Source: Thuidium tamariscinum
Taxonomy: Eukaryota > Streptophyta > Bryopsida > Hypnales > Thuidiaceae
NCBI GenBank assembly: GCA_947034885.2
Contig: OX344756.2
Span: forward strand, 22,737,489-22,801,488
Length of the DNA stretch: 64,000 bases
Reading direction: 5' to 3'
The notes under the pieces were generated by a model, which ran no database searches, was not told the DNA's origin, and saw nothing but the letters and a program-made list of their open reading frames with translations. This document shows positions 9,546 to 47,799 of this stretch, one piece after another (the stretch's first letter is position 1; each line of letters starts with the position of its first letter). A program made the position numbers and the translations under genes.

Positions 9546-9753
9546 CCCGTCCCCGCCTCACTTGTCCCCGCCCTGCATACTCTCAAGCCTTCCACCTCTT
9601 CATTGAGTTGGTTGTGAGCGTCGTGCTGGGTCTTCTTGATTGCCACGTGGGAGGTTTTCACATTTTCCCGTGAAAATGGCTACACCGACAAGACCAAGGA
9701 AGGAGGAATGAGACAAGACCCGACTACGAGGAGGAAACAAACATCGTAAGCGG

Positions 9754-11961
9754 TTGCATGTTTTACGTAATCCCGCAAAACTTGCATTCAAAGGGTGGGA
9801 AGACGTGCCTGACCCATGGACTTACGAAACCTGTGCCAATTACATCGAGTGGTGCCACATTGACAAGGTCTTCCCAGAAGAGCGACACAACTATCACCGA
9901 CGCTTCCACAAGGCAAATTTAAAACATTGCATTGATGAGGAGTTCACAAATCGGTGCATCGAAGTGTACCAGGCGTTGTATGATGTCCCTATTGTCAAAC
10001 GCAATGAAGTGCATCTCTTCATTGCACGAGGGGTACATGCGGAACTGAAGTTGAACAAGAGAATGGACTGGTCAACTTTGAAGACAATGGGGGAGAAAGT
10101 CAACATTCCAACACCAGCAAATGGATTCATTCCAAGGGGGGTAAAAAGGTACCCGCAAGGTGGACTGGGTAAAACAATGACACAAGTTGAAGCACCACCA
10201 CTACATGACACTGAGGACTTTGCTACAGATAACGACTCGGATGGATCTCATGTGCCACATGCACTCAGCTATAGAACAAATCTACGGCTTAAAAAGAGGA
10301 GGGCTGAGCGTGCAACTCAAGAGGGTGTACAAGAAAATGTTGTGGAGGGACAGGTGCCAGCTACTGACGAACCAACAATAGGAATTGTTGATGTTACAGC
10401 AGCTGCAGATCGAATTCAGAGTTTGAGGATTGAAGTGGAAGAGAGCAATGCGCATCTGCATTCTTTGTATGAAGATGTTGCTAAATTGAGGGATGAACTC
10501 AAAGAGAAGAACAATATTATAAGTGAACAACAACGTCAGATAGAGGTGCTGCAGCATGCTCTTGAAGCAGCCACATTGGCCAATGATGGTCAGGATCCAC
10601 GAGGGGGAGCGGAAGGGCCTCCAATCCATGATGAAATTCCAGTGCAACATGTTGAAGTTGGTGCAACACAGCGTACTCAAGATGATGCATTGTCATTTGG
10701 AGAATTACCCACAAATGCAAGTCAAGCAATGCCAATTGACCAGAGCACTCAATTGACGGACGCACTTGCAAACAATTTGATATTGAAAGAGCAATTGAAA
10801 GCGTTGATGGAGCAATATTACCAGTGGAAGATGGCATGCGTCTTTTCAGTTGACAGGACTCAGCAAATGGCGTCAGAATTCCAAAAAATCGACAACAATT
10901 ATGGCGCACACAATCAAGAGAGGGTTTTTGGGTTGACATCGTGGGCCCTTGTGGATGATCATTTCAACATGGATGAAATGGTGACCAAAGACATTGGTGG
11001 TGGAACAACAATCATCGATTGGTCCAAACACCATTGGGATTTCAAGAATGAAGTTGGCTCTTCCCTCGACCAGAACGGCAATCCACTATTATTGTGGCCA
11101 AATCCTTCAAGCTTCGTGTATGATGGTACTACGTGTCCCATTTGTCTAAATCCATTTGGCCCTGAAGGTGGAATGCACCTAGGCACGTGCGAACACTTGT
11201 ACCATCCATTTTGTTTGATTAGCTTGATGGTTGTTCGTCGACGGTGTTCCTTGTGCAAGGCTCCTTTCCATGAGCGATTGTATGATTTATTTGGATTACT
11301 TTCATACATGCCACCACATTGGGAATATAATGCTGAAAATGCCCCTGATCATGCTCAGAAGTGGGGAACTGATTTGGTGTGGAGTTGGAAATTGAAGCTC
11401 CATTCCTTGGATAAACAAAACCTTTCAGCCGAATGGGGTTGGGAAAAAAATCCAGCTCAAATAGTGGAGGTGTGTCAACACTTGATTCCAATGAAGGACA
11501 AGTATAGCCAAGGACGACAGAATTTCTTCTATCAGTGCTTCAATGGGCATTGGGACGAGGTTTTTGAGAACTTTCAATTTGGACCTCATCCTAAACAGTG
11601 GTTTTGGAATAGGGATGGAGTTCGTATCACTAACGACGATGGGATTCGTATGGTGGACGACATTGACATGCCTAACCCTGCTGAACTAGTTCAACTAGAG
11701 GAGTCAGAGTGGCGAGAAACCTTTCGACATGAAGGGATGGATTTCTTGCTTGAACAGCATAGCCCTCGAACTCGCCAATGTCTTGAGAGCCTCAAACAAT
11801 CACAGATCATGAGGGCTGTATTGGAGGAAGATGGACCAGCACGGAGAACTCGATCCGCAGTTCGTAGACTTCGTTTAGGCTCGGACGAAGACCTTCCCGT
11901 CATTGCAGGGACACATGACAACGAGGCTGGCCCAAGTGGCAGTGCAATGGACATAGACTAA
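9754..11961 (+). CDS. RING-H2 finger coiled-coil protein, hAT cargo
   Basis: 735-residue frame. A coiled coil lies at about residues 215-275 and a second, weaker one near 335-360. A canonical RING-H2 runs from residue 461 to 501: C461-x2-C464-x14-C479-x-H481-x2-H484-x2-C487-x10-C498-x2-C501. RING-H2 proteins are usually E3 ubiquitin (sometimes SUMO) ligases, so that is the likely role. The N-terminal 150 residues and the Trp-rich 520-640 region are unfamiliar. An upstream ATG at 9676 lies in the same frame but meets TGA after eleven codons (MATPTRPRKEE), so either translation starts at 9754 or an older, longer N-terminus was lost. It is driven by the TATA box at 9538 and the shared array. The stop is TAA. 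Confidence 0.75.
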   Translation: MHVLRNPAKLAFKGWEDVPDPWTYETCANYIEWCHIDKVFPEERHNYHRRFHKANLKHCIDEEFTNRCIEVYQALYDVPIVKRNEVHLFIARGVHAELKLNKRMDWSTLKTMGEKVNIPTPANGFIPRGVKRYPQGGLGKTMTQVEAPPLHDTEDFATDNDSDGSHVPHALSYRTNLRLKKRRAERATQEGVQENVVEGQVPATDEPTIGIVDVTAAADRIQSLRIEVEESNAHLHSLYEDVAKLRDELKEKNNIISEQQRQIEVLQHALEAATLANDGQDPRGGAEGPPIHDEIPVQHVEVGATQRTQDDALSFGELPTNASQAMPIDQSTQLTDALANNLILKEQLKALMEQYYQWKMACVFSVDRTQQMASEFQKIDNNYGAHNQERVFGLTSWALVDDHFNMDEMVTKDIGGGTTIIDWSKHHWDFKNEVGSSLDQNGNPLLLWPNPSSFVYDGTTCPICLNPFGPEGGMHLGTCEHLYHPFCLISLMVVRRRCSLCKAPFHERLYDLFGLLSYMPPHWEYNAENAPDHAQKWGTDLVWSWKLKLHSLDKQNLSAEWGWEKNPAQIVEVCQHLIPMKDKYSQGRQNFFYQCFNGHWDEVFENFQFGPHPKQWFWNRDGVRITNDDGIRMVDDIDMPNPAELVQLEESEWRETFRHEGMDFLLEQHSPRTRQCLESLKQSQIMRAVLEEDGPARRTRSAVRRLRLGSDEDLPVIAGTHDNEAGPSGSAMDID

Positions 11962-13711
11962 GTGAAGTTTCTACTATCTAGCTAGTGAACTTATGTTTTC
12001 ATAGAAGACTTAGGGTCCTAGCTTAATATAGGCTTATAGAATTTTGATCTCGGCAATAGATATTATTCGTTATATTAGATATTGGCACATGCATTTTTAG
12101 ATGGTGTCATGGTCATAGTAACCTTGTCATATACTTTTCCAACTATGTATTCCATGACGCTTATGAAATATATATTATTTAGCCCAAAATCCAGGCCAAA
12201 ATCATTTTTTTTTTTTTTTGCACATACTCTTTTGAAACAACATCATACATATACAAAAATTATATCCTAAAATGAAATGTCATTGAATTGGAGTATTGTA
12301 CTATAATTCATTTCCATTTTTCCATGAATGAATAAAATTAGGGAAGGACAACAAATGCCATTATATTGGAAAAAAACTCATTTCTAATGTTGCTAATGAT
12401 AGAAAACAAGTAAATGGCATTCACTTGAGATACCACCAAAAAATAGAGGGCATTCTAGTGAGATGGAACAATTTCGCTAATCAAGCCCCAAAAAAATAGG
12501 GGGGAATGATATACAATAAATAAAGTGCATTGGTATGGCATGGGATAATGTTGCAAATGCTGCCAAAAACAATTAGGGAGGGAATGATATCCACAAAAAA
12601 TGGCATTCAATTGGGACGAAATAATCTTTCAAATCAATAAAATAAAACTATAAAGAGTTTAGGAAATAAATCGTCTTATGTTGGGATGGAACATGTGGCT
12701 AATGAATTTCGAATAATGAGGAAGGTAATGATCAAAGAAAAATGAATGGCATTCGGTTGGAAAAAAGTTAGGAAGACAACAGTAGTGCCATTTACTTCTT
12801 CCATAACTTGAGATGGAACAATTATGCTAATGAAGCCAAAAAAAATGAAAGAAAAGGAATTCAACAAAAGAAAAGTTGAAAAGGCATTGACTTGGAATGT
12901 AAGTGCTTTCAAAATAAATGCACCCAAAAGAGGGGTAGAGAGACCCAAGCTTTCGTAAATTTTATTTGGGAATGATTCTAAACTTCACTTACAAGTTAAA
13001 GTGATTGACTATAATCCCAAACACTCATCCTTCAATTTCCTATCACGTAATTGCCAGACCTACAATGGAAGTGTATTGTTACCCAAAGTACAAAAAAATG
13101 GGAAAAGTAAGTAGGGATGATTAAATTGGCATGGAAATAGGTACATATTTAATAAAAAATGGTTACCCAATATAAAAAAATTTAGTGGCGAAAAAATCAA
13201 TTTTCATTGACTTGAAATTGATGAAGTAAAATGTCATTGACTTGGAATAGGATTCAATCATAAAAACATGTACGGAATGAAATGAAAAGTCATTGAATTG
13301 GAGTGGAATTCATTTCCAATCTATGAAAAAAATTAGGTAAGGGAAAAAAACGTCATTTAGTTGGAGTGAAAGTGCATTTTAGATGTTCTTAATAAAAGCA
13401 AACAAATGTGAAAGAGATATGTAACAAACATTGTGTTTGATTACCTATTTTAATAAACGAGAAATGGTAAGCGAATGGAAAGACTTCCATTTCTTACCAT
13501 AAAAAACATTTATTATTGAGTTGGGATGGAAGAGTTTTCCTAATGAATAAAAAAAATAGGAAAGGGACTGACGGGAAAAAAAATTACAATTTATTAAGAC
13601 GGAAAAGATTTTGGTTCAGGGTTAAAAAATAAGGAATGAGAATGAAGGCAAAAAAAAATTGGTATTGAGTTACATGGACAAGTTTTGCTAAACCATAAAG
13701 TAAAAAACATA
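11962..13711 (+). repeat. field of diverged tandem repeats with (A/T)GGCATTGA.TTGG units
   Basis: After the RING gene's AT-rich 3' region (to about 12240) comes a long field of degenerate repeats of some 70-100 bp. They carry AAAAATGGCATT, TTGGGATGGAA, GAGTTTTGCTAATGAA and GGAATGAT words. The same repeat family continues at 31104-31745, on the other side of the nested MULE, showing that the MULE inserted into it. It ends with GTAAAAAACATA (13700-13711), the left target-site copy of the MULE. No gene seen. Confidence 0.65.
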
Positions 13712-13830
13712 GGGTTGCTAGCGTGTGAGCCTGTGAGCCTGTGAGCCTGTGAGCAGGAACTTTTTTTTGTTAAAAAAGAGGCAAAAAACCTATAACCGTG
13801 GATGTACCTATGACCGTGGGTGTAAGTAAT
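13712..13830. repeat. left end of the MULE
   Basis: The terminus carries GCTAGCGTGTGAGC, then CTGTGAGC repeated three times and GAGCAGGAA. CCTATAACCGTG and CCTATGACCGTG follow at about 13788-13820. The same words in inverse order form the right end. Confidence 0.7.
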
Positions 13831-14039
13831 GTATACTATTTTTGGAGTGGTTATTTTTGGTTCAGGCTTTAGGGTGACTGTAAAACCTAGAATTCTGGGT
13901 AAGAATTAGTAATTACAAATTTTGATTGCATGAAAAGTTCATTGTGCAACATGAAATTCATAACGCCTTTGGTTGCAGGTGGTATTAATTTCCTCATATT
14001 CAATATTTTGGAAATAGATAGTAATATAGTATTTCAAGA

Positions 14040-14660
14040 AAGATAAAGTATATATTCTACTTCCTATTTTTTCCATGTAGACCTAATTGGAGGTGACTAT
14101 TCATTCCACTTCCCCATTTTTATTCATGTACAACTATTAAGAGGTGACTATTTATTGTACTTCCCATTTTTTTCATGTGGAGGTCACTACCTATTCCACT
14201 TCCCTTTTTTGTTTCATGGACACGTATTAGGAGGTTACAATCTATTCTACTTCCCTTCCTATTTCATGTAATCTTATTTTGGGGTTTAGGGTTTAGAGTT
14301 CCACTTCCCATTTTTTTTATGAAGACCTAATTAGAGTTGACTATTTATTCCACTTCCCATTTTTTTTAAGGAGACCCAATTAGAGGTGACTATTTATTCT
14401 ACTTCCCATTTATTTCATGTAGACATATTTGGAGTTGACAATTTATTCCTCTTCCCACTCTTTTTCATAGAGACGTAGTTGGAGGTCACTATTCATTCCA
14501 CTTCCCATTTTACTTATATACTAGTATTGAGAGGTGACTACTTTTTCCACTTCATTTTTTTTATCATGAAGCACTATTTGTAGGTCACTATATATTGCAC
14601 TTCCTAATTTTATCTATGGAGACCTATTTAGACGTCAGTATTTATTGCACTTCACTTTAA
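14040..14660 (+). repeat. minisatellite, about 62-bp units, roughly ten copies
   Basis: Degenerate units combine TATT(C/T)ATTCCACTTCCCATTT, TTTCATG.AGAC and TATTNGGAGGTGACTA. The array is subterminal inside the left end of the MULE; 14660-15180 is AT-rich with nothing recognised. Confidence 0.7.
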
Positions 14661-15179
14661 GAAACACATTTAGGGTAAGGCCTTGTAATGTTTTCTACAT
14701 GATTCAATCTCATTAATATAGGAATCCATAAAGTTTTGGGGATGCAAATTTCTATGTGAAAGGCTTCAGGGTTCCGACCCCAAACCCGTAATAGGCATAG
14801 AGGCATACTTCGTTGAAGGTGAATTTCATTTTGACAATCAGTTTTTTTAACTTACACTGTGATTTTATTTTTTTTATTTTAATAATTTTTTTGGGCTTAA
14901 GTACACTTGTAAAGAACAACTACAGTAATTATATTCTTTTTGTAGGATCAAAAGTGTAATTCATGTAATGTAGTTCAAGTTATGGTGTTGAAAAACAAGA
15001 TTGAAGGTGGAATAAAGCAAATAATATTTAGCCATAAAAACAAACCACATGTAGATGTAAGAGAAAAAAACATATAGCCATAAAAACAAACAGTATATAG
15101 CCATAAAGCACTCAAATCCAATCATACTAAAAATCCAAACATACCAAGCTAACTCATAAGATATGTCAATCTTATAAGT

Positions 15180-18100
15180 CTAATTTGCAGTAGACTCTGT
15201 CGCAGAATCTCTATCACTAGAAGACTCTGAAGTCTCTCTACCCTCAGATGCTGATCCATCTATGAATTGTAAGACATTTAGAGCGTAAGAAGGTTTGCGT
15301 TGTTTGGGCTTAGAAGTACCAAACTCCGCAAATGCTGATGCCAGTTGCTCTGCATAGATTGGAAGGTCGAATGGCTTCTCAGGGCTCAAGATGAGTCTTC
15401 GTCTCTTCTTCACTTCGTCCTCCACGATCACTCCATCATTGCTACACATACACCAAATGCATTGTTAAATCCAAGAAACATTCCAAGTACAATGAAAACT
15501 AAAAAGCCTTAAATCGAAAAACTTACTTACTAGCTTTAGGGCGCCGAATGAATTTGCGAGGCACAATTACAACAGCATCTTGGTCTTGCGATAAAACCAC
15601 AGTTGTCGCATCCGAACTTGGAGCCGCGGTTACTGGTGCATCAACCTTCTTCATTGGCAAAAGAATGTGCTGGAAAATCCTCTTGTCTTCTTCCAACGCA
15701 ACAATATGCCGCCCTGTTGCTCGACATGCAGTAATAGATGCACCTGTCACAAACCAAAAAGTGAATGATTTGTATAATTGTTGACTACATAAAATGGAGA
15801 AGGTTTAAAGACATTCAAGAAATCAAAACTCACCTGTAGATGCAGTGCAATCAAGTACTATATCTCCTTCATCAGTGGTTCCTTCGATGATGAACTGCAT
15901 GAATCGGGCGTCCTTCTCTCGAGCTCCACGCCATGGCATTCGATCCATGTCATTCATCAACATGGTGTCCTCCGTAGTGTAATTCATAAGCAGGTCATCG
16001 CGGCGAAGGTCAACCTTCGTCTTCAGCATGGTCTGAGAGCGCCTAAATTCAAAATTCGATTTCCCTTTGTCTCCTAGATGTTTCACTAAGAGAGTGATGC
16101 CAAATTTCAATGTCTACAAACACAAACAGAACCCACATGAGAACAAGTAACAATCAATATAACAAATTCAATTCAAAAAACCATTTGAAACAAATGATGA
16201 AGTATTACCGTTTGCTCTGGGTGAATTGCCGATGTAAGATGCATCCGATTCATGCCCATCTAGTCCTTCTTCTTCTTGATGTTTGGGTACTCCTGAAGAA
16301 GTCCTGCAATGGTTTCCAAGGAGTCTTGGCCCCAAGAATGGAACACAACAATGCAGCCGTTGTCTTGCAAATGTTTCTGTGCAAACGCAAGAGCTTGGTA
16401 GATGGTAAAGTATTCCTTATCTGCGTTCCAATAAGGAATGTGCTTGGAGCCCCCTATGTCTGGCACCGGCAAGTTCTCCTGGCAGTCAAATATCATGAGA
16501 TCAAATCTCGGATGCCGATTGACCACTCCATCATAAACCCTTGCTTTCCCTACCACCATCTGCAAGTGCATTTCTTCAATATGTGAGGACTTTATGAATA
16601 CAAGTACAAACAAATACTCATTCATTTCTCCAATTGAAATGCACAATAAAATGATTGTAAAAATTTACCTTCCGCAAGAAGTCCAAGACTTCAGTGTAAC
16701 AATTCGGTCCCCGAACCTCTTCGTTGTCTACTACTTCACCAATCGAGACATTCAACAGTAATTCCTCGGAGTTGACATCGTCATCATCTCCAAGCGCGAT
16801 CACTTGTGTCCCTTGAGTGATTACCTCTTCCGTGAAGTCTGGAAGTACAGCCTTCCTCTTCATCCCGCCCTGAGAAGCACCTTGCATTTGAGAGCCTTCA
16901 TCCAATGTTGATGAGGCTGGAGCGCCACTGCCATCTATAATTTTCTTCCCTTTTGCCTTGTCCTTATCGTCCTTCTCTTTCTCCTTCTCCTTCTCCTTCT
17001 CTTCTAACTTAGCAAGACGCTCAGCTTCTTTCTTTTCTTTGTTCTCCAACGCCAGCTGAATGCGAGCAGCTTTCCTTCTGTCATTTGTGTCCCTCTTTGC
17101 AATCGCCTTTTGCTTCTGCTTTGCAGTGAGGCCAACAAATTCATCAACCTCCATAGTGACAGTACCAATTCCCTCTAGTGAGTTCCGCAGCTCCACCTCA
17201 GACGGATGTGTATACGCAATAGGGCAGTCAAGGTACCATCCTCCACCACTTAGATGAGCCGTGGTAAATGTGCGAATTTGATTTGCTGTAAACATGCAAT
17301 CCACCGAATTGCGGTCAAGAAATCCAGACAAAAATGGAGGAAGGTCTGCTTTCTGAATTGCGCCTTTTGCTTCTAGCTCATACTTGAAGTATCTGCCATG
17401 AGCAAACACAAGGTTTGGAAGAGAATTTAGAGGACAAAAAATTTTAAATCTATAATATACATGGACAAAGGGAGTTGTCAATGTCCAAGAAACCCCCAAA
17501 AAATTTTAAAATTTCATTGAAAAACTAATCAATACAGTTCAAGTGAAGAAAAGTAGGGGGTCCCGAAGGTACCTCTTGGACATCCGTCGGATCCGACATA
17601 TGTCTAAGAGGTATTCCGGGGACCCCCAACATTTTGAACTTTCATAAAAAAAAAATTTCCAAGTCATCCAGAAATTTATTCAAGTCATCCAAAAACTAGA
17701 AACTAAGTAAGTTTTGCAATTTGAATTCGTAATGACAAGAAATTATACTGCAAAACTCACCGAAAAAGAACCCTTCGCACAGCATGATTGGCCCCCTCGA
17801 AAGTATGAAAGTTGTCGCTTTTCTTGAAGTAGTTCGCTCCTCTCAACTGCGCCAAGAAACCTTGATCCCAAATCTTCGTTCTCCATCCTTCCAGATAATC
17901 CAATAACGTCTGTGGCTTTGAGGGAAGGTTCATGTTGATAGAAATGTTGTCTTGTCTTACAACCGCCTCAAAGTATTCCAGTGCTGCATCCTCCATCTGA
18001 AATAACCATTCAACAAATTAAAATCCATTTCAAGGTGACAATCGAGTCTCAATTTCAAAATACAATCATTCTTATAAATGAAATGTTTAAATATAAAAAT

Positions 18101-19721
18101 TATAGAACTCCTAATGTGATGATAAGGAGTGCTTACCCCAGCATACCAAACACAGCGATTCAGAAATGGACCAAGCAATAATTCAGATATTGGTTTCGGT
18201 GGAAAACGCTTTGATTCACGTGAAGGGATGGAAGAATTCCACCACTTCAAAATCTTGATTTTGTGAGCTGGAGTAGTATTGCAAGTTGCAATCATCTGCA
18301 ACTTTTCCAAGGTCATCTCTGGTATCTCATTTGAAACCCAATGCTTCTCCACCTACACCAAAAGAAATAGAAAATTAGATATGTAATGAATTTTCAAGTG
18401 AGGTTGTTCAATATACTTTGAAATACATAAATCACTTACTTCTTCCATGAATCCAGGCGTATTAGCTGGATTTGCCACCGCTAGCAATTTGGACATCTTC
18501 ACATTCAACTTCCCAGTCCTTTCTTTTGCCCCTGCTCTCATTGCCTCTGCAAGACCTAGTGCAGTCTTCTTATCTTCGGGTGTGACCTCAGTGTACTTGC
18601 GAGTAGCTGCGTCAGTGGCTTGAGAAATGTCTTGCTGGAAAATTGAGGTTCACAAATGACTTGAAATCAGTATAGAAAAAAACCCATCTGAAAACATAAG
18701 GCAATAATAAAAACAAAGAAATAGAACAGAAATTTTCTTACCCGGAAAACAAAGGATGTGAAGACTTCTTGTGGCATAGAATACCACGTCTTCTTTGTTT
18801 TCGGTAACCCACACCGCTTTAACTCGGATGGCCTCAACATCTCATTGAACCGCTCAATAGGTAACAAACCATACTTCTGGACTTGATATATCTGGTGTAC
18901 CAGATTGGTCTTCACATGTGAATCTTCTGTGGATCTGTTATACAAAACACATCTTTCAAAATTGGGTACACAAAGAATTCAAATTTTGACATTTCTAAGA
19001 AATTATGAATTCAAAACATAGAAATAAGAGGTAAAGAAATTGCATACTTGTTAATGTCATGCATGACATGCATGACAAGCTCAATTCTGCCCTTCGTCTC
19101 CAAAACAATGGAATCCACACACTAGTGCCATTTTGGATATTTGGAGTGCCTCCTGGTGATATAATTCATCCATGAGATGAGGCGGTGGTTTCCATCACAA
19201 ACATAAAACTTGAGGTTCTTCAAGAACCTCAACTCAGGATGGGACTCCAAATGGGCAATAAATGTGTTGTTCTTCTCCTTCCAAAGAGGATCCCACTTGT
19301 TCATCTCTTCTTCCGTAAACTCCGAGCTCTCCCCAGCTTCATTTGTGGTGGTCACATAGAAAACTGCTGCACCGTCACGATAACCCACTGCAAACTCGTG
19401 CTCAAGCATATCCAGATCACATTGAAGGGTAGGTCTCACCATTGGCATAGACACCATTCGACATAGCGGTATAGAAAGCCGAAATAAGTGATCCGGCTTC
19501 ATCCTAAGGCTTGATATAGTGTTCACCGAATCCCCCTTCTGAAACTGCCGCAAATCGTCCTCCAATAAGTCCTTGCCTTCTTCTATGAAGTCATATAGCA
19601 CATCTTGGTCCATTTTTCCCCCTCCAGGTACTGTTGAAATCTCTTGTTGAATTGTCTCTTCAGTGTTTGGAGTCTGAAGAATGATGTCTTCAAGAGAAAG
19701 GTTAACTGGAGACACATCCAT
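15180..19721 (-). CDS. ParB-like / beta-class DNA methyltransferase-like protein, MULE cargo
   Basis: Ten exons fit with correct GT-AG borders and unbroken phase: 19721-19048, 18934-18742, 18634-18440, 18352-18137, 17996-17761, 17392-16669, 16559-16209, 16113-15834, 15743-15527 and 15441-15180 (1,116 codons including the stop). Residues 170-185 contain FYVCDGNHRLISW, the ParB/Srx-type DGxHR motif. A Lys/Glu coiled coil lies near 615-660. Then come a motif IV-like FDLMIFDCQE (about 765-775) and, later, a motif I-like DIVLDCTASTGASITACRA followed by ATGRHIVALEED (about 946-975). That order (IV before I) is typical of beta-class N4-cytosine/N6-adenine DNA methylases, and a ParB plus methylase fusion is known in phages. 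The usual DPPY/SPPY is DCQE here, so catalysis is doubtful. Two in-frame TAG codons (about codons 200 and 846) interrupt an otherwise open model: decay, or unusual expression. Function is inferred. Confidence 0.65.
17536..17642. repeat. hairpin element H1, TCGGATCCGA core
   Basis: Inverted repeat with outer GGGGGTCCC (17556-17564) and GGGGACCCCC (17618-17627), inner CTCTTGGACAT pairing with ATGTCTAAGAG, and core GTCGGATCCGAC (17586-17597). It lies in intron 5 of the methyltransferase-like gene. Confidence 0.8.
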
Positions 19722-19909
19722 CTGCAAAATGAAAAATGAAATCAAGGTCTAGAAACAGAAATATATGGAGTAAAAATCTAAATCAATTCAAGACAAAATA
19801 CATACCTCTATTCACTAAATCCACAAGTTCAATGAGATATAGTAATAAATAATATTTCGAAAGGTTTAAATACAATATATGCATACACATATAAGAAATC
19901 CAAGTGCAC

Positions 19910-22403
19910 TTAGTCTATCTCTATATCCTCCTCTGAGTCTGAGCTTAAGTGAATGAATACTGGCTCCTGTGGACCTGTAGGACCGCTACAAGCACATGTA
20001 CAAAACTCCTGTAGTGATGGACCGTCCACTGTGATGGAGGTTTCAGCCTCTGAGCTATACTCTGTCTCAGAGCTCTCCAGAGACATGAACCTTCCTTTCT
20101 CAAATTGAATCTCCACAAGCCTCGCAAAGTGTCTATGACGATGAGACCTGATGTCACTCACCCGACTCATGACTGAACTCTCAAATGCATCTACCGCTCT
20201 CTCCGCTGCCTCCATGACATCATCAAAACTTACCAAGTCTTGCTCTGGAGCTTTGTCTTCCTCTTGAGAATCACTTGGAACATGGACATCTGGAATCCCA
20301 GAAGTAGGTTTCTGGGAAGGACCAGCTTCATGAGTCTTCAAAACACTTGGAAGAGATGATGTAGGTGAAGATGCCCCTCCTTTGCGGCTTTGCTGAAAAA
20401 TAGACCACATTCAAGTAAACAAGTAATAGAATTAGTAGGTCATTATTGAAAGATGAAGATGTTGGGAATTGAATGTAATTCTTAGATATATTTTAAAGTG
20501 ACAACAATCCAAATTCAACAAACTACACATACTCTATAGGCCCTTTGACCTTAACCTTAGCTTGACGTCAATGAAAAAAAAACCCTCCTTAGACTAGTAT
20601 AATATTCCAATTTCCATTAGAGGTGACATTGGATATTTGGATTAATATCTATTGAAAATCATTGGAACCATTTATTAATTCAATTTCAATATAAAGAGCA
20701 CATTCATAAAATTACAAATACAATAAACAATTTTATGGAACAACTAAAAAAACCTTGCAATTCACATGTGAATGAAGTAAAGGTAAATATGAATTTCAAT
20801 AAACATTAAACTCCTAGTTTGCCAGAAGAAGCTAAATCTTCATATTCTCTAGATAATAGTCAACAACAAATCAGTATCTTTAATCAATAACTAAGCTTTT
20901 TTAAACTCATATTCTTTCGAGACTAAAGACCTTAATCGAATTCATAAAATTTTGAAATTAGAAAATATAGATATTTGCAAATGTTTAGCCATCCAATTGA
21001 GAAACTAATCCATGTGAAAAAATGATTGAAAAAAATAAAAAATTAACATTAAATTCTATTGAAGATTGGATATGGCATTATATAAAATAATTCTAAGATC
21101 CCCATCATAAACGAAATTCCAATAATAAAAATATGAAAAAACATAGTAAACAAGAATTTGAAAGCCAAATCAGGAAATCCTTTTTTTCTAAATTTTTAAA
21201 TCTCAACCGTTGGATCTTAAAATCGTGGGGTCCCTGAGATTGAGGCCGGGTGACCGTCGGATCCGACGGTCACTAGGCCACAATCTCAGGGACCCCACGA
21301 TTTCAAGATCCAACGGCTGAGATTTAAAAATTCAGACTCCAGTCCGCATCGATCCCAGGCGCTACAGTTTCGGCATGACAGAAATCTAAATCGCTCGGGT
21401 AACAAGATCTCCTCGCAAAGGCTTCACACATGATTCAAACAGGACTCTAGTTCTGATCGGCGAAAGAATACAAACCAACTCGGTGCATGCGTGAGATCTC
21501 AAGGTGCATCCAATTTATACATGTACCAGAAATTCTTGAGACCGGAGTGCAAACCGGAATGTGAATCGACATTCAAGTCGCAATCCAAAGGACCTGGACA
21601 CCCCGAACCTACCTAGTTGGGTCTTGGACTTGCAAAACTTTTGAGATCACAAAGTTGACATCAGCGTCATCTTCTCGAACAAAATTCAGGATTGGACATG
21701 ACGAGATCATGAATTCTTTATCCGGTGAGGGAAAACGTCGATCACGCGGACCAACTCAGGCCGAAGCTGCCGCGGCAAGGGGAAATGACGGAAGTTCAAA
21801 TTTTTTTCTAAAAAAACGGCCACTTGAAGTCAAGAATCGCAGCAAGGTTCAGTTTCTTGGGGGTGCAGCCCGACCTCGTTGGAGGTAGCTCGGATCCGAG
21901 CCACCTTTGACAGGGTCAGGCCAGACCCCCGACAAACTGAACCTTGCAGAGTGAAATCTCCAGTTGACAGTTCGAGTTCAAAAAGTATTTCATCATGAAA
22001 GCTGAATTTGGGGGTCCAACCCAACCTCGTTGGAGGTAGCTCGGATCCGAGCCACCTCCGACGGGGTCAGGCCAGACCCCCGACAAACTGAATGGGCGAA
22101 AAAAAATCTACGTCTGGCAGTTTGAGTAAACAAAAATTTCAACATGAAAGCTGAATCCTTCACCGAACCGGTTATGGCAACTGGAGGAACATCTGGTGCT
22201 TGTCTTGAAGACTAGCTCACATCACTCAAGCGAATTCCTCAAAACTGATGATCAACGCCTAGTTCCAAAGATAAAAATCGACACAGAGAATGACTAGGAA
22301 AAAAAAAGGCGACCATCACCTGCATAGTCTTCCGAACTTTCCCTCCACGAGCTGGTGGAGTACTTGCACCCTCCCGCGCACGGCTCCTAGTTGCACGAGT
22401 CAT
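19910..22403 (-). CDS. small acidic Ser-rich protein with SUMO-interaction-like tail
   Basis: Two-exon model: 22403-22320 and 20392-19910, joined in phase 0 with GT-AG borders, giving about 188 residues. The N-terminus is basic (MTRATRSRAREG), the middle is low-complexity Ser/Pro/Thr, residues about 80-120 are a short helical stretch, and the C-terminus ends VFIHLSSDSEEDIEID. A hydrophobic V-x-I-x-L core followed by Ser and acidic residues resembles a SUMO-interacting motif. No other domain is seen. The intron (about 1.9 kb) holds three hairpins with TCGGATCCGA cores. It lies just upstream of, and on the same strand as, the methyltransferase-like gene, ending 189 bp before that gene's ATG, so the two could be one transcription unit or alternative first exons. 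I do not recognise the family. Confidence 0.5.
21191..21332. repeat. hairpin element H2, TCGGATCCGA core
   Basis: A near-perfect 142-bp inverted repeat with arms of about 70 bp. Outer AATTTTTAAATC pairs with GATTTAAAAATT, the middle carries CGTGGGGTCCCTGAGATT and its inverse, and the core is GACCGTCGGATCCGACGGTC (21252-21271). It lies in the intron of the acidic-protein gene. Confidence 0.85.
21842..21947. repeat. hairpin element H3, TCGGATCCGA core
   Basis: Arms begin GCAAGGTTCAGTTT and end AAACTGAACCTTGC. GGGGGT and ACCCCC lie inside, then GGAGGTAGCTCGG against CCGAGCCACCTTT. The core is TCGGATCCGA at 21890-21899. It lies in the intron of the acidic-protein gene. Confidence 0.85.
22001..22093. 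repeat. hairpin element H4, TCGGATCCGA core
   Basis: A diverged direct copy of H3 about 150 bp downstream: GGGGGTCCAAC and CAGACCCCC outer words, GGAGGTAGCTCGGATCCGAG in the centre, core at 22041-22050. It lies in the same intron as H2 and H3. Confidence 0.85.
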
Positions 22404-22706
22404 CTTGGCGTCCTGATGCAAAAATCAAGAAAACTTCAAACACAAGCGAGAGGCAGAAAGAATGAGTGTACTTGGCTGCCTCAAGAATGGCTGTACAGCG
22501 CTTGGAGAGTTTGGTTCCGCCGCCCGAAGGAAGGGATCCTGTACAGGCTGGAAGGAGCGACATTTCAGTTGCACCAATCTTTCTTAACGATAAGATTCGA
22601 AAATTAATTCTCCTCCCTTGCGTTCGGCGCGCGCCGCGGCAGAGGGGGAAAAAGTTCTGGAGGCGCGTCAGTCTCCTCGGAATCCACATCTGGAGTCCCA
22701 TTACAC

Positions 22707-23404
22707 CAGGGTTGCTTCCGTCGCGTCACGTCCGTCCGTCAGGATGTCCGTCCGCTGACGTGACGGGGAGCCGAGCGTCCGTCAGGATGAAATTCACGAC
22801 AGAATCCGCGACAGAGCATGAAAAATCGTCGACAGGGCCGTCAACGAGGCCGTCCACCGTCGACCGGACCGTCTAGGATAGAATCGAACCGATTAGGGCT
22901 AGCCGGCTGTAAACTTCAGAGCCTTGTAACTTTTGCAAAAAGTTTTCAAATTGGGCAAATGAGATGTTTTTCGGCATCTACAGAAACTGTAGATGCCGAA
23001 AAACATCTCATTTGCCCAATTTGAAGACTTTTTGCAAAAGTTACAAGGCTCTGAAGTTTGCAGCCGGCCAGCCCTAATCGGTGGACGGCCTCGTCGACGA
23101 CCCTGTCGACGGTGGACGGCCTCCTCGACGGCCCTGTTAACGGTCGACGGCCTCGTGGACGGCCCTGTCGACGGTGGACGGCCTCCTCGACGGCCCTGTC
23201 GACGGTCGACGGCCTCCTCGACGGCCCTGTTAACGGTCGACGGCCTCGTGGACGGCCTTGTCGACGGTCGACGGACTTCATCCAGGCCGTCGACGACGCT
23301 GTCAGCATTCGGGACGGCCTCTGACGCGTCCTAACTCGTCACGACTGACGCGTCATGACATCCGGACGGGAAAAGCCCACGTCACGTCGGGATAGACAAC
23401 CCTG
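22707..23404. mobile_element. non-autonomous hAT element, 698 bp
   Basis: It begins CAGGGTTG (22707) and ends CAACCCTG (23404), with the 8-bp target duplication CATTACAC on both sides (22699-22706 and 23405-23412). Subterminal CGTCCGTCCGTC and GACGTGACG words resemble the giant hAT's ends, and its right terminus shares CAGGGTTGTC with them. The interior holds a 193-bp palindrome and an array of GTCGACGG/CCTCGACGGCC units (23085-23290). No transposase is encoded. It sits about 300 bp upstream of the acidic-protein gene and is the innermost level of the nest: host, hAT, MULE, this element. Confidence 0.9.
22889..23081. repeat. 193-bp near-perfect palindrome inside the small hAT element
   Basis: Arms run from CCGATTAGGGCT (22889) to AGCCCTAATCGG (23081) and meet around 22985 in CTACAGAAACTGTAG. 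Mismatches are few. It could extrude a cruciform or give hairpin RNA. Confidence 0.9.
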
Positions 23405-23412
23405 CATTACAC

Positions 23413-25051
23413 ACGGCCCAAGATTTTGTTCTCTCTGTCAACGAGGCTTGAATGACGTGTGCAGAGCCAATTGGCCGGAACCCATTCATCTCTCTGTGTC
23501 AGTCTCGTGACTGGACTGCTCTACGGGACGTAGCCGCCACGTGTCATGGCCTCATTCGTGCTTAGGTTTAGAGAAAGGAGATTTGGTATATTAAAAAAAG
23601 GAATGAAGGAACCAATGAAATGTGGTATACCAAATAAATCATGAACAAAAAAGCATAATCAACTTTGACGTACAAATTACAGTTAGTATTACATAATCAA
23701 TGGAGAAGAAGTATTCTTTCAAATTATAATTTAAATCTGAATTATGATGTTGCTTCAGGAGAAGACTGAATTTGACCATACGCACCTATAGTACATCACC
23801 ATAATGAAGGCTTTTTGAACTTCATTCTTTATCCCTATAAGAGTAAATCATTTGTCCTATGTATCTCTTAGAAATGAGAATTGAGTTTTATGTTTGTAAT
23901 GATTGTTTTTGTGTTTGTATATTAATCTATTGAAGGTTCCAAATTCTCATAAAATTTTGAGTGCAATAGCATTTCTTATAATTTTTGGGAATAAGAAGGA
24001 AGATGTTTCCAACCATAAACCTCTATTCATTTTAAAATATGTTCTACACATAATAGTTTTAGTAATTTAATTATCTTGTTAAGGATTTCCTTGTTCACTT
24101 ACATTGACTAAAAAGTAGGTTCTCTTATTCACAATAAACACTTATTAATTTTGTAATTGTATACACTGGAGGTGAATTTTTATGTCGTGAAGAAGGACCT
24201 ATAAGACACAAGGAGTAGAATACCTATTGGTCAAATGTAAAGACTATTCATTATTTTTTAGAATATGTGAATATAGTTTATGTCATAAACATATGGTAAC
24301 ATAGAATTTAAATATCTTGCAATGTATGCCATAAGAGGTAGAATATGCTTAGATACAGAATATACTATAAGTCACTTATAAAGTTACCAAGAATGGAGTA
24401 TTATCGTTTTTCCAAAGTGCACTCAAAAATTATGCCTACCCTACACTATTGAATACATGAATGCTATAGTGAAGAGGAGAAAGAAAGATAAAAAATATCT
24501 TATAGTTTATCAAAGAGAATCCTTTATCCTGAAGCACATTCAATAATTTCACTTGGAACCCCTATCTACTGTTTGTCACTCAATCAGGTTCAGTTCTACA
24601 TGACCTAGAAGGCAATGATGTCATCAATTAGAAATGAATATGTTCTAAAATTTTGTAGTACCTATTCCTGTTTACTTTAGAGCCTGCCTAATCTCATTCT
24701 AAATTCAAAATTTCCATGAACCATCACAGATGCTTCCAAGGTGTAAGAAGTATTCTCAAAGCAATTCATTCATACAAATATGAAGAACTGCAGATTTTCA
24801 AATAAACGGCTCCGCTCTCTAGAATATTCACTTACGAGACAACATAACATATATCTCAAACTATTACAAAAACTCTTTGCACATTTGACTTACTATCTTC
24901 ATAATCTTATTCTGCAAACACTGGTATATATGAGATGGCTTCATATAAATAGTAGACAACATTATCTATTCTAGCGCACTCTCAAAAGTCGGGTGAAGTT
25001 GCGAACACATGATGCAATAGGTAAGCGAAGGAAGTTTCTAAAAAATCTTAC
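23413..25051. other. AT-rich, no gene recognised (inside MULE)
   Basis: Apart from a short GC-richer lead (23413-23570), this is AT-rich DNA without repeats, conserved motifs or a credible coding exon on either strand. It may be the long intron or 3' part of the gene whose first exon lies at 25243-25052. Confidence 0.4.
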
Positions 25052-25243
25052 GGATGCGGTGTCTAGCGCTCTTCCAACTTCCTGTATGCTTGTATTGTCC
25101 GCATAAGTCTCTTGGGTTGCTTCGGTGTCGCTTACGAGGTCCTCCTCCTCCTGCCCAGCACTCCCTCCTTCAAAGCGAAGAGATCTCCGTAGGTCTCCAA
25201 CATTCTGTGCTAACTTGGATGGCCCTCTACCTCCTCTCTTCAT
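25052..25243 (-). CDS. candidate first exon of a divergent MULE gene
   Basis: An ATG at 25243 opens 64 codons (MKRGGRGPSKLAQNVGDLRR, then an acidic stretch GQEEEDLVSDTEATQETY) ending at a good donor (GTAAGA at 25051). The basic start and acidic follow-up resemble the small acidic MULE protein further downstream on the same strand, and it could be an alternative first exon for that locus. Downstream exons were not found. It is divergent from the MULE transposase, with about 750 bp between the two ATGs. Confidence 0.35.
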
Positions 25244-25494
25244 TTTGGATAGTCTAAGAGCTTTAGAAGAAGAAAAGTACAATGCGGTTCGCCTCTTCCT
25301 TCTTCTCCTATGAACGGAAGTACCCAAGAAATCGCAACTACTCTCTACAAGCATGAAGTGAGAAAGGAGAACATCACAACTCTCACATTGCACTCTACTA
25401 TCACAAGAAACAGATTGGAATGAAGGCTCGGAGCCAAGTTTCCTCCTTATGTCGTAATTGAAAGTTTAGGGTAAGCCGCTTTCTCATCATCCGC

Positions 25495-25575
25495 TCTAAT
25501 GACATGCGCGGGAGTACAGTATGACATGCGTGGGAGTACACTATGACATGCGTGGGAGTACACTACGACATGTAA
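25495..25575 (+). promoter_or_regulatory. short tandem array between divergent MULE genes
   Basis: Three units of about 24-25 bp carry GACATGCG(C/T)GGGAGTACA(C/G)TA, with a partial fourth (GACATG). They lie between the divergent first exon (25243) and the MULE transposase ATG (25996). The position parallels the motif array of the hAT's divergent promoter, but the motif is different. A regulatory role is inferred from position only. Confidence 0.45.
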
Positions 25576-25995: not shown

Positions 25996-28900
25996 ATGGC
26001 GGCTACTTTCCGTGAATTCATTTATACAGAAGACCCTAAACCTCAGAAGGTGGCAAAGTTCAAATGTATTCATAGTTCTATTCACCTCAACCTCATGTTG
26101 TACAAAGGTTCACAGTCTTCTCTTTTTCACACACCTCTTTACAATTTGAAGATGGCTTACATTAGAGTAGATGGCCGTGAAGTTCCTTTGGTTTTTCCGG
26201 TAGTAGACGGTGAACACGCTACAGTTTCCTCCCACCTTCTCCATGTTCGATTTAAGTTTATAGAAAGCTCCATATATGTTGAAGAAGAGAAATTTTTAGA
26301 TTCTGGTGAAGTGCACCAGTCCATCCCTGTTGTTGTGTCCGTAGAAGATGGAATGCGTTGTTGGTACCTATCTCCAGGAAACTATAGAGCATATGGGCTT
26401 CCTCTGTCCATGTTGAGTGTGTCCATGGAAATCCCCAGTCACCAGTCAGACAATTCTACAGTGAATATGCCATGTATTGAACAGGCCATTGCACTTAGTC
26501 CACCTCTGCAAGCTTTACCAGTCATTGAGAAGCGTAGAGCACTTCGTACAGTGAAAGTGGAGAAATTAGATCCAATCATAGAGTTGTCTTCGGATTCTGA
26601 AGGAGAGACTCCCAAATTCAATTTTGAGAATCTTGCTAGTTCTGTTCCGCTTGCAGCATCTAAGATGGAAGGAGTTGAATCACTAGCCGAAATCCCTTCA
26701 AGTAGTCCTTCAAATTTGACATCGCCACTCCCCCATTTAATTCCATATGTAGCAAGCGCAGAGAGTATAATGGATTGCTTGAAGAGACTTGGTACAATGC
26801 GCCGCTCTCGAAATGAGTTGTCAACAATGGATCTGGACACTATGAAGCACATTCAAGTTCCATTTCTTCCAGCCATCTTTGATGGAGATGTCATCTTCGA
26901 ATTGCCACCATGTCGCTCATCTTCTTCTTCATCAGGGGCCCGGAACTTGGAGGGGATGGATAAGCGATACGACGGACATCCGTGGTGCAAGTTGACGACT
27001 ACAAACATTCACAATTCCGACAACCTGAAATTCCGTAAGTCGTTCTGTGCTGGACATCTTTCTTGTGAGAATGAAAATTGTGATTACTTGAAGAGATCTT
27101 CAAAGAAAAATGAAACAGAGTGGACTGGATATACTATGTTCCCTTTTACTCCGGGAGAGTGTCCACGAGTAGATTCAACTCTAGTATGCAAGGTTTGCAA
27201 AACTTCCCCTACGTGTCTTAGTGCATGTCCGGCTAGAATATACTATGTATGCAGTGATAAAGTACAAGTGAGTAGAGCAGCAATTCACTTTGGAGAGCAC
27301 AAGCACCCTGTTGCTAAGGGCATGTACAGAGATTCTATTGAAAAGATTTGCGGACTTATAGCGGAGCAAGTGGCAAAGACACCCATGGCTACGAACTTTG
27401 CTATTGCTCTTTCTGCTAATAAAGACTTCTTAACAAACTACTTGTTTCACAATGGAGAGGGCGAGAAAGAGATGTTGAAGGAGGAGGAAATGGAAGAGGT
27501 TATGGATCGCTTCCAATACCTGAGTAGTCCAAGTATCCGCAACGTTATCTCTTCCTTCCGTTCAAACAATCGAGGAGGAGTGATTGACAACATTATGACC
27601 ATGAAGAGAGAGTCCAAGTTCGAATTCATACACGATAGCGTTTTTCCAGGACAAGGTAAAGATAAGGTCTACATTTTTAAAATGCTCACAGAGGGGCCTG
27701 GGAGTAGAGTGGACCTTGTGAAGCGCATGCAAGGAGGAGGTGATCTACAGAATGCTTGGTTGATGTTTGACCACGTCAAGCGTGTAAAGGACTGGACCAC
27801 AATGGCTTGCCACGTGTATGATACGGAGTACAAGAAGGTCATGACGGTAGCCATTTGTGATATGCAATCCGAAGACACAGAGGTTCAAGTACAGTTTTGG
27901 CGAAGTTTAAACGCGGTTATGCAACGACATGGAGTGCCTAACCCAAATTTCAAGGGATTCATGGCAGATAGCGCCATGGCGAATTGGAATGCAGTCCGCA
28001 TTGTCTATGGTAGCGGTTTAGCTAACGTTGCAATGGAGAATCGTGAAAGAACATGTTTGCTACATTGGAGTACCTCTCTCCATAGACATACGCAGAAGTA
28101 CATCAAAGAAGCATTTCAACAGCAACATATTTCATTATGCAAACAATACAAAGATTCAAAGAATATGGACCAAGCAGAGACACGTTACTTGGCAATACAA
28201 TCATGGTGGCTATCATCTAGAGCTGCAACTGAAGATGCACTTCATCACTTAGATCATTGGCTGGCTTTCTGGCATTTTCGATATCGGCAATGGGGAGGCT
28301 TCATGGACATGGTATGTAAATTTTGTGATGTCAATCTATGTGTATTTTTGGAAAAAACTGCAGAGTACTATGACAAACTTGACTAGAAAGTATAATGTCA
28401 ACAAAGTTGACGTGAAGACATCCCTAGATTTTGGAATCCTATTTGAATTATTTCTAATTTTTTCTTTTCATGTATGAAAAAGAGGGGGTCCCAGTAACAC
28501 TATAATTACATCACTCGGATCCGACGGACATATTAGTGGTGTCAGGTGGACCCCCTTAATTTTTGTTTTGAAAAAAATTAAGTGTATTGATAGAATGAAA
28601 AATTTGAAATGGAGACCTCATTTGAGACTACAAATGTGGATTAATGATATATTCATCATTATTCGAATTTTCACATACCTTGCTTATTGATGAAGACATT
28701 GCCAGTCGTACACATTGTTAGAATGTATATTACATAGGTACAAGTAGATATTGACTAAGAAGCTTCTTTTTTTGTACTGTATAAGACTAATTTCATTTGA
28801 GTTGTCTGGATTTACTAGAAATTGAGTTTGGAGGAGATGCTGGATTTACCATCGTGTAACCTTTCTGAAACGGTACATAACAAGTGGCTGCAAATGTCGG

Positions 28901-30207
28901 GCAATCGAGAGAACAACTTATTTGATGCAACATGTGATGACAGTATCCGTGCATGGATGCAAATGACAAATTACAGAGCATACTTGAAAGGACATGCATC
29001 AGGATTAGGACCATCAAAAGGAGAGTTGAAGCTAAGAGCTTCTAGGAGGAGTGGGGATCCCAAGAAAATTGCAGATGCCTTGAATGCTTTGCCTGGGTCA
29101 GAAGGTGTGGGAACCAGAATACCACACTTAGAAGGGGAAGAAATATTTGGAAGCATGAAGAGAAAGTTAGATGTGCCCATTGGTGATTCAGGTGATTCAC
29201 ATAGACCGAACAAAATCAATTTCTCTCAACCCCGTGTTAGAACAAGGTCTACAACAGCTTTGTCACCTTCTTCGCATGACAAAGGTAAAGAGTTGGAGGG
29301 AAATACTTCTCAACATGTTCCAGTTGCATTTGAGAGTGATTGCGACACATCCAAATGGCATATTGCAAAAATCAGCCACAAATCCAATGCAAGATGTCAA
29401 GCTCAACAGAAGGCCAGTAACATCAAGTGCACAGCGAAAATTTCAAGGGGAAAGAAGGGAACTCCAGCGCCAACCTACCGTGGAAGAAAAGAAGAATACG
29501 GAAGTAAGCGGGAAGTGGTTGTTGACTTCTGGTTTTGCTGGGATGACATTGAACGTTGTGTCAAGGGTTCCAAACGGAAGTGGGTTATTGATTGGCCAGA
29601 GATACCAGAGGTTTGGCCTGTTCTCACTAGAACAAACCTCAATCGTGAAAAAACATTGTTGTTGCAGCATGCTGGATTTCGCCTACAAACACGGCCAATA
29701 TTGTCACCACGTCGATTGTTCAACATGTCAAAGATTTTTAGCACTGTCGTGTATGACCAACCTCCACCACAAAACCCAGACACTTATCCAACAGTGAGGA
29801 ATAATCGTGCCATTCGAAGGGTTGCAAATGCACCTACTACCGAGCAACGGAATAAGTGGGAAAGTGCAGGCAATGTCAAAGGACAAATTCTGGAGGTTAC
29901 TTTGCTCCCTTCTCCTGGACTTGGTGCAATTGTAGTACTCGAGACAGGGTCAGATTCTAACAGGAATGCATATCGAGTTACAATAGGAATGTTTCCAACG
30001 TGTACATGTCCAGACTTCGTGAATATGGTTGTTTCAGCTATTGGTGGTCGACAACAGTACGTGAACTGCAAACACTTGTACTATTTGTACAGGTACTTTT
30101 GCAAGGTGGATGTCTACAAAGACAAATTCATTCATGCACCAAGTTATAGCTTCAATGAGTTGAAGCTACTTCTAGTTCAAGCAGGAATTATTGCAGTTCC
30201 AGAATAG
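25996..30207 (+). CDS. MULE transposase with WRKY/GCM-like and SWIM zinc regions
   Basis: Exons 25996-28311, 28364-28411 and 28819-30207 join in phase 0 to give 1,250 residues. Order: a novel N-terminal region (1-180); a SUMO-interaction-like IIELSSDSEGE (about 193-203); a Cys/His-rich zinc region of the WRKY/GCM type common in MULEs (about 325-480, including C-x-G-H-x2-C pairs and FGEHKHPV); the DDE region (about 585-700) with GFMADSAMANWNAV and RERTCLLHW; LPSCNLSETVHNKWL at the start of exon 3; and a SWIM finger CTCPDF...NCKHLYYLY (about 1183-1208). Its place inside matching MULE-type ends makes it the mobilising transposase. The frame is open throughout and ends in TAG. Intron 2 contains hairpin H5. 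The exact catalytic triad needs alignment. Confidence 0.8.
28477..28562. repeat. hairpin element H5, TCGGATCCGA core
   Basis: Outer AGGGGGTCCCA and GTGGACCCCCTTAA, core TCGGATCCGA at 28515-28524. The inner arms are looser (about 60 percent by eye). It lies in intron 2 of the MULE transposase gene. Confidence 0.75.
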
Positions 30208-31091
30208 GCATGGCTAGATATGTTTGTCTACTTCAATTGCATTTATAAATATATATTATGATTGTTGTTTGAAGTTAATTTCCTCATATTACAGAAGTAC
30301 TAGAAAGTGTTGATGCAACTATGCTTGTACATAAATGTAGAGTGTTCATGAACCCTGAAAATGAGGAAGAGTGACAAGACTCAAATTCCAGGGTTCATAT
30401 TCATATGTCCCATAACAATTGCCATTCTACAACGCGCTACTATAAGAGGTGTCTTGTTTGATGGTCATACATGGCAAAGGACCGATTGGGGGAATAGCCT
30501 TTCTCCGTCATCATGTGGAGAATTATATTCCCCTCGGTTCTTTGACATTTTCTTGAAAATACCAACTAAAGCATGTGTAGACAAATCACGACATCATGTA
30601 TACAACAGTATAGGTACGGTACCTAAATTTGAAAAATGATGACGTAGGGGCAATAATGAGACTAAAAAGGACACAAAATTAATTTTAATTTATTCTTATA
30701 GTATGACTAGGATATAGCTTCAATACAGGTGTTTGACATTTTTTAAGGTATGGAGAAACCAAGTCCTAAAATATGTATCATAAAGTTTGAAGGCATCAAT
30801 CTTCATCAAATGAAACTTTAAACGAAAAGAACTAAAATTTCACTGAAATCATTTTCATAGGTGACACGGTCATAGGTCACGGTCCTTGGTGATGCGGTAA
30901 TAGGTCACACGGTTATAGGTCTTAAATTTAAGAATAAATGGAAAAAAATTAGAAATTTTGGGCAAAAAATTGAAAAACAGTCATTTTATCCAAAAAATTT
31001 GAAAATATCTAGTTTCGAGGCTTCCTGCTCACGGGCTCCATGCTCACAGCTCACAGGCTCGCCGCTCGACGCTCGCACGCTAGCGTCGTTG
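30208..31091. repeat. 3' region and right end of the MULE
   Basis: After the transposase stop comes non-coding DNA. From 30870 the terminal words appear in inverse order to the left end: CACGGTCATAGG, CACGGTTATAGG and variants (four), then GCTCACGGGCTC, GCTCACAGCTCACAGGCTC and CGCACGCTAGCG. The element ends just before GTAAAAAACATA at 31092-31103. Confidence 0.7.
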
Positions 31092-31103
31092 GTAAAAAAC
31101 ATA

Positions 31104-47776: not shown

Positions 47777-47799
47777 GTAGGTGTTGTAGATGAGATTAA

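Follow-up and report, generated by a model that had tools for sequence, protein, structure and literature searches.

A methyltransferase-like gene within a 17.4-kb MULE-like transposon of the moss Thuidium tamariscinum

A ten-exon gene was found inside a DNA transposon in a 64,000-nucleotide stretch of the genome of the moss Thuidium tamariscinum (assembly GCA_947034885.2, contig OX344756.2, positions 22,737,489 to 22,801,488, forward strand), here called the window, in which all positions are counted. The element is 17.4 kb long, resembles the Mutator-like elements (MULEs) and is of the autonomous type, with a transposase gene free of stops. Judged from its amino acid sequence, the C-terminal half of the methyltransferase-like product descends from a bacterial or phage beta-class amino-methyltransferase. 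We tentatively favour the reading that this is an accessory gene of the element, whose product would be a DNA-binding former methyltransferase that helps or shields the transposon.

Structure of the methyltransferase-like gene

All frames of the minus strand between 19721 and 15180 were translated, and the exons were then spliced. Ten exons in a single phase were obtained, as a preliminary description of this DNA had proposed, and all nine introns are of the GT-AG type (Table 1). The remaining two frames of the spliced sequence contain 56 and 63 stops, and the content of guanine plus cytosine is 45% in the exons versus 30% in the introns. Because of the stop-rich other frames and this contrast in composition, the model is far from chance, and the gene is a real one. 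Its frame is phased throughout but not open, since two in-frame TAG codons, missed in the preliminary description, lie in exons 1 and 7. The motifs named there were all located: DGNHR at codons 176-180, FDLMIFDCQE in exon 7, VLDCTASTG across exons 8 and 9 and GRHIVALEED in exon 9.

A splice acceptor (TTCATTTTGCAG) lies immediately 5' of the exon 1 ATG, and a candidate first exon at 22403-22320 splices in frame onto exon 1, so the gene may start further upstream. The same candidate exon belongs to a putative two-exon upstream gene. Because it joins in frame to either sequence, a single unit may give rise to both the small upstream protein and the methyltransferase-like protein as alternatives. 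The upstream 188-aa frame had no family match over the cut-off in a Pfam scan.

Ancestry of the C-terminal domain

The Pfam model N6_N4_Mtase matched the C-terminal domain alone with 27.1 bits (gathering score 26.7), and with 22.9 bits when the whole protein was scanned. Five methyltransferase families of PHROGs were matched with E values from 5e-8 to 0.001. A sequence search of the PDB at E up to 5 gave six matches; the best three were two DpnA-type methylases (E 4e-4 and 5e-4) and CcrM (E 0.05), and one of the six was an unrelated ATPase. In NCBIfam the CcrM model was matched at E 8e-5, with a score far under its cut-off, and a thymidylate synthase model at E 0.1. When the 61 residues around motif I were used as a tblastn query, matches at E up to 0.01 were obtained in 267 of 50,697 phage records (the best with 45% over 56 residues, E 3e-9) and in 33 of 72,556 plasmid records.

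A model was also built from phage enzymes only. Ten phage loci were fetched and nine were used; one (L006) was dropped because its gene is split in two. This model scored 47.9 bits against the C-terminal domain, compared to 5.0 bits for the best of 500 shuffles. The phage set was picked from matches to the query itself, which somewhat favours the score, and the score rests on the C-terminal half of the domain only; the Pfam match is free of the selection bias. The beta-class assignment of the C-terminal half in the preliminary description is thus borne out by two kinds of model.

Residues at the catalytic motifs

In the nine phage enzymes motif IV lies 169-182 residues before motif I, without exception. 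The tetrapeptide DCQE stands 178 residues before motif I and is preceded by a hydrophobic strand (FDLMIFD, compare DMVLAD). A D-hydrophobic-D pattern, which 8 of the 9 phage enzymes have, arose inside that spacing window in 667 of 200,000 shuffles. A second candidate for motif IV, HIPY, is 163 residues from motif I and falls outside the spacing range. The spacing is in line with the earlier suggestion of an altered DPPY, and the motif IV position most likely reads DCQE. Neither placement gives the catalytic (D/N/S)PP(Y/F/W), nor DLPY or DIPY. The FxGxG loop that binds S-adenosylmethionine (SAM) is likewise replaced by TASTG, in which the last glycine alone is retained, against GSG in the phage enzymes.

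A count by hand shows that no coding of DPPY lies closer to the DCQE codons than five base changes. The share of single-base changes that create a stop in the methyltransferase-like sequence is 4.0% weighted and 4.5% unweighted, so that two stops suggest neutral change of about 1.5% from the time when the gene was still intact; being based on two events, this value gives the order of magnitude only. Compared with so little decay, the five or more changes required suggest that DCQE and TASTG are probably features of the family and not recent damage. DCQE was probably already present while the gene was intact, and the two stops probably broke this copy recently.

Since DCQE and not DPPY stands at the expected spacing, methylation by this protein appears unlikely. 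We correspondingly regard it as very unlikely that the product is an active methyltransferase of DNA (or RNA) that has unusual motifs and marks the DNA of the element. The SAM-side half is well preserved and retains the acidic residue that follows motif I, HIPY stands close to where motif IV is expected, and motif IV varies among the nine phage enzymes (DPPY in four, DLPY in four and DIPY in one), all of which would suit an active enzyme. A precedent is also reported from bdelloid rotifers, where a captured bacterial amino-methyltransferase serves as an epigenetic writer, but that enzyme retains SPPY (PMC8885841), and the residues found here at motif IV and in the glycine-rich loop speak against activity.

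Ends of the element and its transposase

The element spans 13712-31091 (17,380 bp) and encloses both the methyltransferase-like gene and the transposase gene. An identical 12-mer (GTAAAAAACATA) lies directly outside both ends. A common 12-mer was seen in 28 of 34,026 random AT-rich pairs of the same size and in 10 of 20,000 pairs of any composition. The two ends carry terminal inverted repeats that align over 43 bp at 86%. This alignment is not decisive on its own, because the inverted pair formed by 6778-6813 and 36234-36268, elsewhere in the window, equals it in score. The outer 9-mer GCTAGCGTG has two sites in the 64 kb, at 13717 (plus) and 31084 (minus). The window contains five ACCTAT[AGT]ACCG boxes, two on the inner side of the left end and three on that of the right end.

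A host gene unrelated to transposition, lying by accident between transposon ends that do not belong to one element, would also account for the position of the gene. A length of 17.4 kb is long for a MULE. The end alignment contains gaps and has its equal in the window, and the target duplication of 11 or 12 bp reaches just past the 8-11 bp range given for MULEs (PMC6446971). Against this stand the outer box unique to the two ends, the five subterminal boxes present only there and pointing inward, and the shared 12-mer. We hold unrelated ends to be highly improbable.

The modelled transposase has a weak C-terminal SWIM finger match (15.0 bits, under the cut-off of 19.6). Candidate DDE residues and a candidate CxxH were assigned by eye. 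A hydrophobic-acidic stretch occurs in the transposase (IIELSSDSEGE) and in the small upstream protein (HLSSDSEEDIEID); we take these stretches to be similar to SUMO-interacting motifs.

Further repeats were observed in the element. A 49-bp tandem array close to the left end is a second candidate for an element-specific motif array, and its short words are enriched in the element. Between the divergent genes lies a near-perfect hairpin (22888-23082) with 96-bp arms (97%) and a 3-bp loop, adjoined by a 31-bp tandem array at 23079-23274.

A family of palindromes in the introns

Five 72-bp palindromes share one design, GGGGGTC...TCGGATCCGA...GACCCCC, in which boxes of the GGGGGTC/GACCCCC type stand at a constant distance from the centre of the dyad. 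The core 10-mer TCGGATCCGA occurs five times in the window, each time inside the element. In the alignment of the five copies 83.9% of the 180 cells pair, and 19 of the 36 pairs change on both sides. Neither value was reached in 500 shuffles, and slid versions gave at most 50.9%. The paired percentage is partly a product of selection, as the first copies were noticed as palindromes, and the copies at 21859 and 22010 are tandem duplicates; the notable part of these statistics is the covariation at constant length. A search of the viral contigs with the design as a fixed pattern gave no match. Large inverted repeats at 46767-47797 and 3207-3391, outside the element, have a core unrelated to that of the palindromes.

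The intron of the methyltransferase-like gene, the modelled intron of the upstream gene and the transposase intron share this one design, which occurs nowhere else in the window, and this suggests that the gene has belonged to the element for a long time. The possibility that a host gene was captured by the transposon in the manner of a Pack-MULE, and is decaying with no role in the element, is considered unlikely. MULEs are reported to capture fragments of host genes often, the copies usually being pseudogenes (PMC13317346), and two in-frame stops agree with such a fate; ten exons, every splice site and the frame are nevertheless all retained over 4.5 kb, and the palindrome family is common to an intron of this gene and the transposase intron while absent from the window outside the element.

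The palindromes may alternatively have nothing to do with the methyltransferase-like protein, being small independent insertions, either foldback elements or ones similar to miniature inverted-repeat transposable elements (MITEs), or hairpins of the pre-mRNA. All five lie in modelled introns, where insertions are tolerated and which make up 3,628 of the 17,380 bases of the element, and all five are predicted to fold as RNA from either strand (-26.9 to -65.4 kcal/mol). No target duplications were seen by eye around the boxes, however, and the core is without a copy outside the element in the window. Departures from pairing are about equally G-T (16) and A-C (13), which suggests that the symmetry is kept in DNA rather than in RNA; RNA hairpins are for this reason not favoured as the selected feature. 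Independence of the palindromes from the protein is a real possibility, if a somewhat doubtful one.

The N-terminal part

The preliminary description took the N-terminal part for a ParB-like domain on account of DGNHR. The DGxHR motif is present and arises in 268 of 50,000 shuffles of the protein, a suggestive figure, but the motif was chosen post hoc. DUF1015, a family containing a DGHHR motif, matched the N-terminal part at E 0.0037 with 16.7 bits, under the cut-off of 25.8. Among four shuffled controls, matches to a family of some kind were obtained for two, of which the better scored 15.6 bits (E 0.016), and because a shuffled copy reached that score on another family the DUF1015 match is near noise. 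Scans of Pfam, PHROGs and NCBIfam gave no match to a ParB or Srx model, sequence searches of the PDB brought up no solved structure for the DGNHR region, and tblastn of the N-terminal part against the phage records gave nothing above noise. DUF1015 was sought in three phage records and ParB in four, with no match. The ParB claim is weak and unproven.

Stops in the present copy

Splice choices that could excise the stops were listed as all in-frame GT donors and all in-frame GT..AG stretches of at least 60 bases within the exon, the sites being unscored. Such choices exist in both exons. In exon 1 each of them loses DGNHR as well, and in exon 7 the smallest one costs 29 codons.

Proposed role and points against it

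In the accessory gene reading, a domain of bacterial or phage beta-class origin would have lost its catalytic DPPY. The protein would then most likely bind DNA, perhaps also SAM, and not methylate it. Its likely targets would be the repeated non-coding motifs of the element itself, foremost among them the five conserved palindromes, and it would probably serve to protect the element from silencing or to aid transposition, as VANC or MudrB do in other MULEs. The binding or scaffold role, offered as an alternative in the preliminary description, is judged the better part of its interpretation. The most specific version, in which a bacterial or phage methylase has become a catalytically dead, sequence-specific binder of the intronic palindromes and thereby keeps silencing off the element or labels the element for the transposase, is a speculation to which we give little credence. 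Symmetry that persists while the sequence drifts would fit this version, with a dimeric or two-sided protein reading the dyad.

Several observations weigh against an accessory role. The gene carries two in-frame stops, and it is known here from a single broken copy. No relative of the gene and no second copy were found in protein-query scans of the viral contigs or in scans of the genome contigs, collections which are viral and prokaryotic, so that the absence of a plant relative means little. The domesticated working gene of the preliminary description is putative. The motif IV half of the domain scored only 2.0 bits by itself against the phage model, within the range of shuffles. One multiple alignment places HIPY, and not DCQE, with the phage D-P/L/I-P-Y; HIPY shares three of four residues with the phage DIPY, differing in the first, and the argument that the chemistry was lost would be weaker with HIPY as motif IV. 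Single-sequence structure prediction gave a mean pLDDT (predicted local distance difference test) of 33.3 for exon 1 and of 39.7 for the transposase core. The transposase had no MULE match in the Pfam scans, which is why the element is called MULE-like; the earlier placement of the gene inside a MULE holds as far as an element with inverted ends, a target duplication and an unbroken transposase frame. Three of the five palindromes lie in the upstream intron, which is putative and modelled from sequence alone. Palindromes of other sequence occur both in and outside the element within the window, and binding of DNA or of the palindromes by the protein is putative, by analogy.

If the accessory role is correct, the element would hold a second, independently built anti-silencing system of a transposon beside VANC, and a bacterial modification enzyme would have been reused without its chemistry. 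Few systems with transposon proteins that counter silencing are known; the one found described is VANC. Among the titles and abstract openings listed, including the literature on moss and fern MULEs, no MULE or other eukaryotic transposon with a ParB or amino-methyltransferase gene was found, and a prior description is possible.

Other features of the window

Coordinates are collected in Table 1. Other transposase frames are present outside the element. An open frame of 634 aa at 52566-54470 (plus) has a strong DDE_Tnp_1_7 match (E 1e-78) and is presumably of the piggyBac type. A 767-aa hAT-type transposase frame (DUF659, Dimer_Tnp_hAT) at 36322-38625 (plus) is directly followed by a glycine- and asparagine-rich frame of 543 aa (38626-40257). 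Two Plant_tran transposase pieces at 43281-45173 (plus) and 57493-58089 (minus), which we assume to be of the PIF/Harbinger type, were found, and a separate frame has a NAM-associated match in Pfam; the Plant_tran and NAM-associated matches near the element indicate a plant host. The 537-aa open frame at 7454-9064 (minus) has a protein kinase match, and that of 749 aa at 9712-11961 (plus) a weak RING finger (25.1 bits, cut-off 27.3). A scan of the window detected no RNA families at the gathering score and no tRNAs.

Table 1. Coordinates of the transposon, its genes and its repeats in the window.
Feature	Position	Strand	Remarks
Left target site duplication	13700..13711		GTAAAAAACATA; 11 or 12 bp, boundary ambiguous by one base
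Left terminal region	13712..13824	plus	Inverted repeat (GCTAGCGTGTGAGCC..., from 13717) and two inward boxes ACCTATRACCG (13788, 13806)
49-bp tandem repeat array	14049..14653	plus	12.3 copies; 3' of the methyltransferase-like gene, inside the left end; Tandem Repeats Finder
Methyltransferase-like gene	15180..19721	minus	Ten exons; 1,115 codons (1,116 with final stop); 9/9 introns GT-AG, single phase
Exons 1-5	19721-19048, 18934-18742, 18634-18440, 18352-18137, 17996-17761	minus	
Exons 6-10	17392-16669, 16559-16209, 16113-15834, 15743-15527, 15441-15180	minus	
DGNHR	19182..19196	minus	Codons 176-180; ParB/Srx-like signature, unproven
In-frame TAG, codon 200	19122-19124	minus	Exon 1, 20 codons past DGNHR
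DCQE	16476..16487	minus	Exon 7; at the expected motif IV (DPPY) position, 178 residues before motif I
In-frame TAG, codon 846	16260-16262	minus	Exon 7
Motif I and next strand	15685..15858	minus	VLDCTASTGASITACRATGRHIVALEED; split by intron 8; matched by Pfam N6_N4_Mtase and phage methyltransferases
Putative upstream gene or alternative 5' exons	19910..22403	minus	Two exons, 22403-22320 and 20392-19910; 188 aa, acidic C-terminus; open through GT-AG intron
72-bp palindrome	17556..17627		Intron 5 of methyltransferase-like gene
72-bp palindrome	21226..21297		Modelled intron of upstream gene; dyad extends to 150 bp (21187-21336)
72-bp palindrome	21859..21930		Modelled intron of upstream gene; tandem partner of the 22010 copy
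72-bp palindrome	22010..22081		Modelled intron of upstream gene
72-bp palindrome	28484..28555		Modelled transposase intron
MULE-like transposase gene	25996..30207	plus	Modelled exons 25996-28311 and 28819-30207; 1,234 aa without stops
Right terminal region	30867..31091	minus	Inverted repeat, outer box at 31084; three inward subterminal boxes, first bases 30877, 30905, 30920
Right target site duplication	31092..31103		GTAAAAAACATA; identical to left 12-mer

Comparison with known systems

The closest parallel is VANDAL21 of Arabidopsis, likewise a MULE-type transposon with accessory genes and with element-specific repeats in its non-coding parts, its own introns included. VANC is reported to bind a short motif enriched in the non-coding parts of the element, and the bound motifs form repeats in the VANB and VANC introns and upstream of VANA (PMC5735166). 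VANC has DUF1985 and DUF287 and not a methyltransferase domain (PMC5735166); neither of the two was matched in a Pfam scan of the whole methyltransferase-like protein at E up to 1. Inverted ends are described as lacking, or as short and degenerate, in VANDAL elements (PMC6446971), whereas the present element has them. The VANC motifs are short and arranged in arrays of one orientation, in contrast to the 72-bp palindromes found here. In the favoured reading the protein would work in the manner of VANC or MudrB, and membership in either family is not claimed.

MudrB is not known to contain a methyltransferase domain, and the likeness to MuDR of maize is one of description. MuDR combines a transposase gene with one accessory gene, mudrB, whose function is given as unknown and which is apparently needed for integration; extra open reading frames such as mudrB, vanB and vanC are carried by several MULEs (PMC6446971).

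With the beta-class amino-methyltransferases (N6_N4_Mtase, the DpnA-type 5hfj, CcrM 6pbd and the phage methylases) the protein shares its C-terminal half, where the similarity is significant, and a candidate motif IV strand whose distance to motif I is the usual one. It differs from them in DCQE (or HIPY) in place of DPPY, DLPY or DIPY, in TASTG in place of xxGSG, in the nine introns of its gene and in a large N-terminal extension. ParB-methylase fusions such as Bce_0392 of Bacillus cereus offer a possible likeness, a ParB/Srx-like motif N-terminal to an amino-methyltransferase. The ParB domain of Bce_0392 is reported to be a nonspecific nicking endonuclease (PMC5512222); here ParB membership is undemonstrated, and about 570 residues separate DGNHR from the methyltransferase domain. 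In N4CMT of bdelloid rotifers, as in the protein studied here, a eukaryote carries an amino-methyltransferase moiety of bacterial type (PMC8885841). A chromodomain accompanies the catalytic SPPY in N4CMT, which deposits N4-methylcytosine at transposons, whereas the present gene is itself borne by a transposon and its catalytic motif is seemingly absent.

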